Source: Bacteroidota bacterium (GTDB lineage: Bacteria > Bacteroidota > Bacteroidia > Chitinophagales > Chitinophagaceae). From it: a stretch of DNA of 39,755 nucleotides. Both the position numbers and the translations under genes were made by a program. The DNA lies in the NCBI GenBank assembly GCA_005883765.1, contig VBAQ01000010.1, positions 1-39,755 on the forward strand, read 5' to 3'. Each line of letters begins with the position of its first letter. Positions within the stretch are counted from its first letter, which is position 1. The notes under the pieces are model-generated. The model was given only the letters and a program-made list of their open reading frames with translations. It was not told where the DNA came from and made no database searches. This document shows positions 14,747 to 17,985 of the stretch, piece after piece.

Positions 14747-15910
14747 TTAGTCTCCCAAAGTGGTTCTGTGGACAGTTGTACCCCCGGTATCAACGGCATC
14801 CCTTCGCGATAATTCTGTGTGTTGGTCTTTCAAAGGGAGTGACTTAAATTCGTCAACGAACTTTACTGTTGATTCAATAAACTTTTCCTTCTCGCCAAAT
14901 AAAAAATAGTGCCGGATTGGGATCACATACATTGGCATTGTGTCCAACTCGGTTTTAAATTTCATCAACCGAATGGCGTCTTTTTCGGTGGTTAAAATAA
15001 TTTTATTGGCCGCGTCAATTTTTTCAAATCTTTTTTCAATATCCCGTAAGTCGTCGATGCTAAAAATATAATGATCACTGAAGGCTATCATGTAATAAGC
15101 GTGGCTCTTTTCCTCCAACAATTTTTTTAGCGGCAGAGGATTAGCAATTCCCGTTACAAGGAGCACTTCAGTCTTTAAATTCAATTGACATGTCGTAAGC
15201 CGGGTGATGTGATACGGCAAACCATACTCAATGGTTGAGAAAAAAATTTGCTGATGTGCTAATGGTCGAATTTCTTTCCGGATCCTGTCCGCCTCGTCCC
15301 TTGACATGTCAGGTTTGCATTTTGTCACCACGATTATATCGGCTCTTTTATAACCCGATTTCAGGTCACGCAAGTCACCAGTTGGCAAATAAAAATCACG
15401 CGTAAATAAATTATTGTAATCAGTAAGCAAAATATTCAGGCCCGCATTGATAGCGCGATGCTGAAAAGCATCATCTAAAATAATAGCCTGGGTTTCGGGC
15501 CTGTCATGCAGCAACTGTGGAATGGCCACCAGCCTTTCTTCGCCTACAGCTACAGGCACATCAGGAAATTTTAAATGGAAGAGCATCGGTTCATCACCAA
15601 TATCTAGCGCGGTTGCATTTTCATTTGCCAAGGCATAACCACTGGTCTTTCGTTTATAACCGCGGCTTAGGGTGGCTATTCGAAATTTGTTTTTCAAATG
15701 CTCTACTAAAAATTCGACCATAGGAGATTTCCCCGTACCTCCAAGTGATAAATTTCCAACGCAAATAATTGGTAGGCCAAAAGACGATGAGCGAAAAATA
15801 TTCTTATCGTAAAAGAAATTGCGCAGCCAGATGATGAACCAGTAAATAATTGCAAATGGCAAGAACAGAATGCGAAAAGATTTCAGAAACCAGTTAGAAA
15901 ACATAAACAT
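14747..15910 (-). CDS. lpxK: Tetraacyldisaccharide 4'-kinase
   Basis: A 387-residue inner-membrane kinase that phosphorylates the lipid A precursor at the 4' position. The N-terminus is a membrane-bound helix (FRILFLPFAIIYWFIIWLRNFFYDK), followed by the P-loop GNLSLGGTGKSP (residues 52-63), TLSRGYKRKT, DEPMLF and ILDDAFQHR, all lpxK signatures. The start at 15910 overlaps the stop of the upstream cyclo-ligase gene by 17 bp; a second ATG at 15904 is equally possible. The last 25 or so residues (from DQHTELSRRDAVDTGG) extend beyond the conserved end and look non-native. Known genes of this kind are essential for lipopolysaccharide. Confidence 0.93.
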   Translation of the reverse strand: MFMFSNWFLKSFRILFLPFAIIYWFIIWLRNFFYDKNIFRSSSFGLPIICVGNLSLGGTGKSPMVEFLVEHLKNKFRIATLSRGYKRKTSGYALANENATALDIGDEPMLFHLKFPDVPVAVGEERLVAIPQLLHDRPETQAIILDDAFQHRAINAGLNILLTDYNNLFTRDFYLPTGDLRDLKSGYKRADIIVVTKCKPDMSRDEADRIRKEIRPLAHQQIFFSTIEYGLPYHITRLTTCQLNLKTEVLLVTGIANPLPLKKLLEEKSHAYYMIAFSDHYIFSIDDLRDIEKRFEKIDAANKIILTTEKDAIRLMKFKTELDTMPMYVIPIRHYFLFGEKEKFIESTVKFVDEFKSLPLKDQHTELSRRDAVDTGGTTVHRTTLGD

Positions 15911-16463
15911 TATTCGGCGTAATACAAAGATTTAAAGGTACGTCAAATTCGTGGGTGCCTTCTATCACGTCAACCGGTTCGAAATAGCAGAAACCTACTT
16001 TCAAACAATCAGGCCGGCATTGTTGAAGATACTTGTCATAAAAACCCTGCCCATAACCGATCCTGTATCCCCGCTTGTCAAAAATAAGCAACGGTACAAA
16101 TACCATATCAATTACAGCTGCATCTGTAAGCGTGCCATCCATGGGCTCATGGATATTCCACGCATTCTTCAAAAAGGCTGTGTCCGCATCCACTTCAACG
16201 GCCTCCATTTCGTTTTTCTGAAAATCAGCTTTGGGATACAAAAACTTTATTGACGGATACTTGAATTCAAGATACCCGCTGAAGAGAGAAGTGTTGGGCT
16301 CCTGGTTTTCTTCAATAGGCCAATAAGAAAGTAAGTGATGGATCTCGGGCAAGTCTACTTTTTGAAACTGGATCAGCATCAGATCATTCGCCTTCACTCT
16401 TTCTGCCTCTGAAAGTTCCTTTCTTTTTCCCTTATAAATCCTCCTGCCTTCTTCTTTTTTCAT
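15894..16463 (-). CDS. 5-formyltetrahydrofolate cyclo-ligase
   Basis: I start at ATG 16463 (189 residues, MKKEEGRRIYKGKRKELS), the usual start for the family; the 16-residue longer version has no support. The enzyme (MTHFS, EC 6.3.3.2) converts 5-formyl-THF to 5,10-methenyl-THF using ATP. The signature RGYRIGYGQGFYDKYL with the Gly-rich phosphate loop is clear, preceded by DMVFVPLLIFDKRG, and the N-terminal RxxYKxKRKxLS helix is typical. It overlaps lpxK by 17 bp and follows rsmD by about 60 bp, in a four-gene operon. Confidence 0.92.
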   Translation of the reverse strand: MKKEEGRRIYKGKRKELSEAERVKANDLMLIQFQKVDLPEIHHLLSYWPIEENQEPNTSLFSGYLEFKYPSIKFLYPKADFQKNEMEAVEVDADTAFLKNAWNIHEPMDGTLTDAAVIDMVFVPLLIFDKRGYRIGYGQGFYDKYLQQCRPDCLKVGFCYFEPVDVIEGTHEFDVPLNLCITPNNVYVF

Positions 16464-16524
16464 GTGATTATAATAATTGAATCGCTCAAATACCAATAAC
16501 GTTATCATCATTTTTCAGCCATTG

Positions 16525-17070
16525 CTACCTTCTATTTTCAATGAATATGGTAAAAACTGTGCTACCGTAATTTCTTTCCGTCTTATAAAACGGAAAATCT
16601 TTGTAATCGTTCCTTGGCGTATGTTCCAGGACAAACCATCCTTTTTCGTTCAATATCCTTTTTTCAAAGATAAGCGCAGGCAGATCATCAATATTTGACA
16701 GCGAATAGGGCGGCCCCGCAAAAATAAAATCAAATTGTTCTGTGCGCTGGTCAATAAATTTAAAAACATCCATTTTTATTATTTTCAAATGTTTCAGTTG
16801 GAGTTGGCTTGCCATTTTTTTAATGAACTCATGCATCTTTGAATCTTTCTCCACAATCGTTTGGTCGGTTGCTCCTCTCGACGCCAGTTCATAACTGATG
16901 CTTCCCGTTCCCCCAAAAAGGTCAAGCGTTTTTAGCTCAGGAATCACCAGATTATTTTCAATGATGTTAAACAGTCCCTCTTTGGCAATGTCGGTGGTGG
17001 GCCTGGTGTAAGGCATCTTGCTTGGTGGATTTATTTTTCTGCCGCCCAATTCTCCCCCTATGATACGCAT
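16525..17070 (-). CDS. rsmD: 16S rRNA (guanine966-N2)-methyltransferase
   Basis: A 181-residue class I SAM methyltransferase with the RsmD N-terminus MRIIGGELGGRKI and RPTTDIAKEGLFNII, then motif I LDLFGGTGSISYE (residues 49-61), the acidic EKDS after beta-2, and the catalytic motif IV, which in most family members reads (D/N)PPY. Here the motif is AGPPY: Gly119 replaces the catalytic Asp (codon GGG, 16716-16714), so activity is questionable. Known RsmD methylates G966 of 16S rRNA in the 30S subunit. The gene overlaps the DUF3822 gene by 13 bp. Confidence 0.88.
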   Translation of the reverse strand: MRIIGGELGGRKINPPSKMPYTRPTTDIAKEGLFNIIENNLVIPELKTLDLFGGTGSISYELASRGATDQTIVEKDSKMHEFIKKMASQLQLKHLKIIKMDVFKFIDQRTEQFDFIFAGPPYSLSNIDDLPALIFEKRILNEKGWFVLEHTPRNDYKDFPFYKTERNYGSTVFTIFIENRR

Positions 17071-17885
17071 GATGCCAGCTTATATAACGATGAAAAAAAA
17101 TGAACAGGGTATTCTTCAAAATCCCCACTCAGCTGAATGTCATTTTCAAGAGATGCAAATTCAATATTCAAAAAATATTGATATAGCTCCTTAAAAACCG
17201 CAGATTGTTTATCGATCAAGCCCGACAACGATACACGAACATCGTTTTGAGAAAGTGAAAACTGCTCACAGATTTTCAGCAGCCAGTACAAAACGTCGCC
17301 TGACCTGGTATAAGAAAAAATCTGCGCGAGCAATAAAGAATTATTTTTCATTGCCACCACGCTGAAGCTGTCGGTTTTGAAATCGATTGCCAGGCTGCCC
17401 CCTTCGTGTTGTTGAATTCCATTTTTTAAAATAACTGAATAGATATGCCAGAAACTTCCGGTTGCAAATCTCCGTTCGAGCAACTGGTGTGTTGCTGCGG
17501 GAACACAATACGCATTATGCAACTGCCAGTCACCAATCGATTCACTTACGAATACCCTTTTATCCTTCTCATACATTGCTTGCAGCATCACCTGCGTTTC
17601 TTCATAGCGATACAACCTTGACGGGATCAAAATATTTTCCGGCATATAATACCCAACGATCGTTTGACGGAATGACTGTCTCAGCTCGGCATGTTCATCC
17701 AGCAGCTTTTGCAAAATATCAACATTATCTTTCTCGTCAGCCGTGTAGTAACCCAATTGCACCATCATTTGATTTGCATAATCAACAATGGCAAAACAGC
17801 AATGCGTTTCGCCGATCTCCATTAGCAAAACCGCCTGGGAAGAATTTAATTCTTCACTGCCTCCTATTCGAAATACTGGCTTCAT
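17058..17885 (-). CDS. DUF3822 family protein
   Basis: I start at ATG 17885 (275 residues, MKPVFRIGG); the longer frame to 17960 translates a heptad array. DUF3822 proteins are confined to Bacteroidota and commonly sit beside rsmD, as here. Visible features are an N-terminal beta-hairpin region (AVLLMEIGETHCCFAIVDYANQMMVQLGYY), then a helical stretch (KLLDEHAELRQSFRQTIVGYY) and a second similar fold after residue 130 (GGSLAIDFKTDSFSVVAMKNNSLLLAQIFSY), giving an ASKHA-like look (actin/hexokinase superfamily), which is an inference from the pattern. Function unknown. Its 3' end overlaps rsmD by 13 bp, so the products are likely used together. Confidence 0.85.
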   Translation of the reverse strand: MKPVFRIGGSEELNSSQAVLLMEIGETHCCFAIVDYANQMMVQLGYYTADEKDNVDILQKLLDEHAELRQSFRQTIVGYYMPENILIPSRLYRYEETQVMLQAMYEKDKRVFVSESIGDWQLHNAYCVPAATHQLLERRFATGSFWHIYSVILKNGIQQHEGGSLAIDFKTDSFSVVAMKNNSLLLAQIFSYTRSGDVLYWLLKICEQFSLSQNDVRVSLSGLIDKQSAVFKELYQYFLNIEFASLENDIQLSGDFEEYPVHFFSSLYKLASCVS

Positions 17886-17901
17886 GGGCGTGCAATAATA
17901 G

Positions 17902-17985
17902 GATAAATCCAAATAACAAATATCAAGTCCCAAATCCCAATAATCATAGCCGCAACCCATAGCCCGTAACTCGAAACCAACTAAC
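17902..17985. repeat. Heptad array before the divergent MATE and DUF3822 genes
   Basis: The gap between 17885 and 18003 contains about eleven degenerate 7-base units, for example AAATAAC, AAATATC, AAGTCCC, AAATCCC, AATAATC, ATAGCCG, CAACCCA, TAGCCCG. It accounts for the spurious N-terminal extension of the DUF3822 frame. No promoter box is evident in it. Confidence 0.65.

Follow-up and report, generated by a model that had tools for sequence, protein, structure and literature searches.

A glycine at the start of motif IV in an RsmD ortholog of the Bacteroidota and its interchange with aspartate among related bacteria

Genes and features of the locus

The window, that is, the whole stretch of DNA that was analysed (39,755 nucleotides of contig VBAQ01000010.1 from a Bacteroidota bacterium), contained an rsmD gene that was preceded by a gene of the DUF3822 family and followed by an ORF for 5-formyltetrahydrofolate cyclo-ligase (Table 1). 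The true start of the cyclo-ligase is probably located downstream of its first ATG, since the family match begins at residue 19. The rsmD ORF was intact, and in a profile search it was the sole full-length match to PF03602 in the genome. The five other PF03602 matches of the genome were partial and scored between 22.8 and 41.2 bits.

Table 1. Positions of the rsmD gene, its residues of interest and the neighbouring genes in the window
Feature	Position	Strand	Remark
rsmD ortholog	16525..17070	-	181 aa + stop; PF03602; nearest solved structures are RsmD proteins
Gly119 codon GGG	16714..16716	-	first residue of motif IV (GPPY, not DPPY)
Pro152 codon CCA	16615..16617	-	in the loop that follows strand beta-5 (EHTPRN); coupling with Gly119
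Asp128 codon GAT	16687..16689	-	weaker second coupling with Gly119
AdoMet-binding motif I, DLFGGTGS	16900..16923	-	residues 50-57
DUF3822 gene	17058..17960	-	PF12864; upstream of rsmD, 13-base overlap
5-formyltetrahydrofolate cyclo-ligase ORF	15894..16511	-	

The ORF of rsmD reads ...QFDFIFAGPPYSLSNIDDLP..., where residue 119 is encoded by the GGG codon. The motif IV context was FIFAGPPY, the GPPY nucleus being formed by residues 119-122. The sequence-only reading had placed a Gly (AGPPY) at the start of motif IV, which was borne out by the translation of the ORF, and it was also right that the change from Asp to GGG needs two base changes. The codons of Gly119 found among 213 loci, the window copy being counted once, were GGA (40), GGC (32), GGT (27), and GGG (14). 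As the relatives use all four Gly codons, a change from GAY to GGY would take one substitution, with silent drift afterwards, and silent change goes on while residue 119 stays Gly. The same reading had allowed for a corrected base call that restores Asp. This did not hold, because Gly was found in 203 other distinct proteins among the 336 compared and was written with four different codons. Nothing was found in favour of a sequencing or assembly error, and a miscall at residue 119 is excluded in practice. A paralog that takes over from the Gly-type RsmD was also rejected, as the genome contained only one full-length RsmD.

Family membership and predicted structure

The window protein scored 127.8 bits with PF03602, for which the cut-off is 24, and the match covered residues 1-176 of the protein and positions 1-181 of the 182 of the profile. 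Its best NCBIfam match was TIGR00095, the equivalog model of RsmD, with 103.2 bits, which is below the cut-off of 117.5. Three Asp-type RsmD proteins of Chitinophaga and the like (100, 103.8, and 104.1 bits) and two other Gly-type proteins (94.7 and 93.3 bits) were also below this cut-off, whereas four Asp-type proteins from outside the order scored above it (118.8-136.4 bits). The low score is therefore explained by the divergence of the lineage and not by the Gly alone, since lineage members of both types fall short.

AlphaFold predicted nearly the same elements for the window protein (pLDDT 93.9) and for an Asp-type relative from Chitinophaga (94.0), with the helix behind motif IV starting at residue 129 in the former and at 127 in the latter. 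In the model of the window protein, strand 113-118 runs straight into motif IV, and strand 140-150 ends shortly before residue 152. We take these two strands to adjoin in this fold, the loops that follow both of them lining the catalytic pocket. The six best structural matches were 6m1c and 3p9n (RsmD of M. tuberculosis), 1ws6, 2fpo (YhhF of E. coli), 2fhp, and 2ift, with Z values of 22.1-26.6. The best of them, 6m1c, superposed with 1.6 A over 176 residues (Z 26.6), and the fold was likewise that of E. coli 2fpo_D (Z 24.6).

The protein thus resembles RsmD/YhhF, the 16S m2G966 methyltransferase (b3465 in E. coli, Rv2966c in M. tuberculosis), in its full-length family match, the N-terminal RPTTD, motif I, the PP[YF] of motif IV, and the G966 target. 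It differs from the E. coli enzyme, to which it is 26% identical, by the Gly at the start of motif IV and by Pro152 in the beta-5 loop. As GPPY breaks the motif IV rule (D/N)PP(Y/F), we call the protein a variant and an ortholog of RsmD rather than a canonical RsmD; the window protein is an RsmD ortholog with a variant motif IV.

Distribution of Gly119 and Asp119

Among 336 non-identical RsmD proteins of the phylum, the window protein included, residue 119 was Gly in 204 and Asp in 132 and no other residue was found; the rows were sampled for lineages and Asp cases and the genomes were partly picked by pattern matches, so that 204:132 is not a frequency. All Gly rows came from the order of the window or from named close relatives, where 43 rows contained Asp. 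The remaining 89 Asp rows, from outside the order, were without any Gly relative beside them. A first phylum-wide alignment of 213 rows had contained 113 Gly and 100 Asp. Among near relatives, 31 tblastn matches, two of them the window's own, contained GPPY in all but one case. At 80 named genome loci, all from close relatives, 74 Gly and 6 Asp were found, and all six Asp cases were named Chitinophaga species (C. dinghuensis, C. eiseniae, C. ginsengisegetis, C. polysaccharea, C. solisilvae, and C. hostae). On the aligned proteins, Gly119 is neither a private loss nor a base-call error but a residue common to a group of related bacteria. The sequence-only reading had looked to relatives that share the Gly and have proven methylation. 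The sequence part of this stands, Gly being common in relatives, and for the other part no methylation data for Gly-type organisms were found in literature searches of openly licensed papers, most subscription papers lying outside them.

Rows were dropped where the tblastn match was weaker than E 1e-8 or the protein was identical to another (345 were reduced to 335, plus the window), and two loci of the window itself (L001, L007) and one of E. coli (L241) were also removed. Of 30 Asp-pattern loci that were fetched, 17 were full-length RsmD; four pieces at Asp-pattern matches (L387-L390) yielded no row. When the patterns were run on 396 genomes of the order, 44 Asp and 175 Gly matches were obtained; these were rejected as frequencies, because the patterns need Phe or Leu at residue 115. 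A match to rsmD was present in 37 of 39 genomes, including the window's own. Genomes without such a match numbered 2 of 39, 4 of 158, and 2 of 80 in the sets searched; regions from the set of 158 were mainly one per genus, plus the loci given.

Four class-level genomes listed as 100% complete (G085, G108, G112, and G182) were without an RsmD match at E 0.001. A further genome, G147, belongs to the same family (f23) as three of these four and contained a marginal RsmD match only (4.3e-4). Loss or strong divergence of rsmD is possible in these five genomes.

Interchange of the two residues on the tree

The tree of the 336 rows was built without columns 119, 123-129, and 151-156. The best tree contained 16 changes between Gly and Asp, at least five of which were forced by well-supported (starred) branches; most of the 16 sit on weakly supported branches, and the count cannot separate gains from losses. 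In a careful tree of 46 rows, the Asp rows of Chitinophaga and the like were placed in two separate groups within the Gly type. Three changes were obtained throughout the 5-95% bootstrap range of this tree, and Gly as one clade was rejected (p-AU 0.020). The Asp-type Chitinophaga proteins were 65-68% identical to the window protein and nested among the Gly-type Chitinophaga. Judged from these trees, Gly119 and Asp119 have replaced each other repeatedly, with two returns to Asp nested in Chitinophaga.

The proteins at L250 and L251 (genomes G468 and G508, genus code g7) represent a second, separate return to Asp among genomes like those of Chitinophaga, with Arg at residue 152.

Coupling of residue 119 with Pro152

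Pro152 was present in 192 of the 204 Gly rows vs 3 of the 132 Asp rows. It was first spotted by eye in an alignment of 17 rows, and all columns were scanned afterwards. The scan for co-change with Gly119 covered 346 residue codings over 181 positions and used 16 phylogenetically independent pairs. Pro152 changed in the same direction as Gly119 in 14.3 of these pairs and in the opposite direction in 0.0, and ranked first after residue 119 itself, the next best net value being 9.1. It was followed by Asp128 (9.2 same, 0.1 opposite) and Thr171 (9.2 same, 0.2 opposite). In the five starred pairs alone the values for Pro152 were 4.5 vs 0.0, five pairs being too few for a sign test to reach 0.05. 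The 12 Gly rows without Pro152 contained Gln (6), His (2), and Ser, Ala, Lys, or Asn (1 each). The coupling between Gly119 and Pro152 is thus strong but not absolute. The Asp-type Chitinophaga species differed in this region as well: residue 124 is Met, residue 125 is acidic, and Asp119 is accompanied by Gln, Asn, or Arg at residue 152.

Asp128 was considered as a replacement carboxylate and rejected, or left as secondary at most. It was present in 156 of the 204 Gly rows and missing in 48, and was coupled in only 9.2 of the 16 pairs.

The many changes between Gly and Asp within one order might suggest neutral drift, in which the Asp is dispensable for transfer to the N2 of guanine and either residue works anywhere. 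We regard this as very improbable, since Asn, Ser, Ala, and Glu would then be expected beside the two residues found, the Asp rows outside the order have no neighbouring Gly relative, and the co-change with Pro152 goes one way.

Selection and retained residues of the active site

Ten close pairs of rsmD genes (8 Gly-Gly and 2 Asp-Asp) had dN values of 0.012-0.159. The dS values were 0.33-1.50 in seven pairs and saturated in three Gly-Gly pairs. In the computable pairs (5 Gly-Gly and 2 Asp-Asp) dN/dS was about 0.02-0.06 and was equally low in both types. From these ratios, rsmD is under strong purifying selection.

All 204 Gly-type rows contained invariant R23, P24, T25, D50, F52, G54, G56, E61, S64, and R65, and also F117, P120, P121, Y122, and E149. 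Residue 74 was Glu or Asp in 204 of 204 rows, and residue 101 was Asp or Glu in 203 of 204. As D50, F52, G54, G56, P120, P121, and Y122 are fixed, neither the cofactor motif core nor the remainder of motif IV has been lost.

These data bear on the main rival explanation, in which the Gly-type RsmD has lost all or nearly all catalysis but persists because it serves 30S assembly, still binding AdoMet and helix 31, a role that Pro152 would stabilise. Related amino-methyltransferases become inactive when they lose the motif IV Asp, as described for mutants in PMC3814359. In addition, disruption of the genes for m2G966 and m5C967 is described in PMC6259748 as causing no significant change in growth rate, but a lower competitive fitness. 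However, the motif I core is invariant in every Gly-type row, the Gly-Gly pairs are constrained as strongly as the Asp-Asp pairs, and the returns to Asp imply a site that was otherwise still fit for use. We therefore consider a dead assembly factor unlikely, although it deserves to be taken seriously.

The 16S rRNA target

The 16S rRNA of the genome itself (contig 401, locus L225) and of all six relatives aligned has a G at the position numbered 966 in E. coli. Loss of the target was thus rejected. At position 967 an A was found in six of the seven aligned 16S sequences, including that of the window's genome, the exception being a C in G038, a genome of the order with an Asp-type RsmD; 16S was located in 11 of 39 genomes, a helix-31 pattern matched in 3 of 30, and none of the sequences compared came from an Asp-type Chitinophaga. 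The E. coli position 967 is a C, which is methylated there as m5C967. The A967 was also present in a class-level genome with an Asp-type RsmD (G154). A tie between Gly119 and base 967 found no support, as A967 occurs with the Gly type and with this Asp-type genome and C967 occurs in the Asp-type G038.

The A967 of the window's genome, where E. coli has C967, would agree with an altered reaction, in which the pocket opened by the Gly permits a second methyl group (m2,2G966) or the methylation of another nucleotide of helix 31. A small motif IV residue does accompany dimethylation in enzymes of the KsgA/Erm type, where, according to PMC3814359, it replaces the first proline. In the Gly-type rows, unlike KsgA/Erm, both prolines and the Tyr are fixed, G966 is unchanged, and A967 is shared with the Asp-type genome G154. 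An altered reaction is therefore held to be quite improbable.

Proposed mechanism and meaning

Amino-methyltransferases are identified by the pattern (N/D)PP(Y/F/W), whose first residue is regarded as catalytic, as stated in PMC3814359. The same paper describes that the target amino group in DPPY enzymes is held by the acid together with the first proline's carbonyl, and that the D164A mutation abolishes the activity of RlmJ, as do the equivalent mutations in EcoDam and EcoRV (PMC3814359). The DPPY amino-methyltransferases RlmJ, EcoDam, and T4Dam belong, on this account, to the same class of motif IV chemistry as RsmD. The residue that is essential by mutation in RlmJ, EcoDam, and EcoRV is thus naturally absent in the window protein, and an acid-free site would not be expected to work well, since the Asp mutants of these enzymes are dead.

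The explanation that we prefer, and hold to be reasonably probable, is a compensated RsmD ortholog in which the acid contact has been replaced and which would very probably still methylate the N2 of G966 in 16S rRNA. Activity of the Gly-type enzyme is suggested by its conservation, the coupling, and the reversibility of the change. The sequence-only reading had offered two branches, either that G966 methylation is lost or that another residue is used, and the second is better supported by motif I, the selection on the gene, Pro152, and the returns to Asp.

In this compensated ortholog, the motif IV Asp would have been replaced by Gly at least once within the order of the window, and the lost side-chain contact would be compensated by a rebuilt wall of the adjoining pocket. 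The rebuilt wall would consist of the loop after strand beta-5 with Pro152 (EH[TN]P) and the altered segment after PPY. Pro152 may shape or stiffen this loop in such a way that the contact otherwise made by the carboxylate is taken over by a group of residues 150-154, either from the backbone or from a side chain. The target amino group would then probably be held by the backbone carbonyls of the motif IV Gly and Pro together with a group of the 150-154 loop, and by no carboxylate. The lineages that regained Asp, two of them in Chitinophaga, are without the proline; as they lost Pro152, the two arrangements would be alternative solutions within one fold.

A wider proposal is that the RsmD of this order may transfer methyl to an exocyclic amino group without an acid or amide side chain in motif IV by a second design, formed by Gly119 and the Pro152 loop, and that the family has switched to and fro several times between this and the Asp design. 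We put this forward tentatively, with a little less than even confidence. In searches of titles and the starts of abstracts of the openly licensed literature, most subscription papers lying outside, no mention was found of GPPY together with a methyltransferase or of a Gly motif IV in RsmD. We rate the Gly-type RsmD as a new variant within a known enzyme family.

A large natural clade in which the Asp was lost, the cofactor site and the remaining residues of the motif were kept, a specific partner residue is seen, and returns occurred amounts to a ready-made mutational experiment. It is also a caution that a methyltransferase is not to be called dead from motif IV alone. The RsmD of C. dinghuensis (Asp) and those of two Gly-type Chitinophaga (L076 and L016) were 70-74% identical and differed at residue 119, and the role of this residue is therefore directly testable.

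The DUF3822 neighbour

The DUF3822 gene was found in 16 of the 19 genomes searched, among them genomes of the Gly and of the Asp type, and its coordinates placed it directly before rsmD in all 16. Its presence does not explain the switch between Gly and Asp, since it precedes rsmD in genomes of both types. The DUF3822 protein might act together with RsmD in this group.
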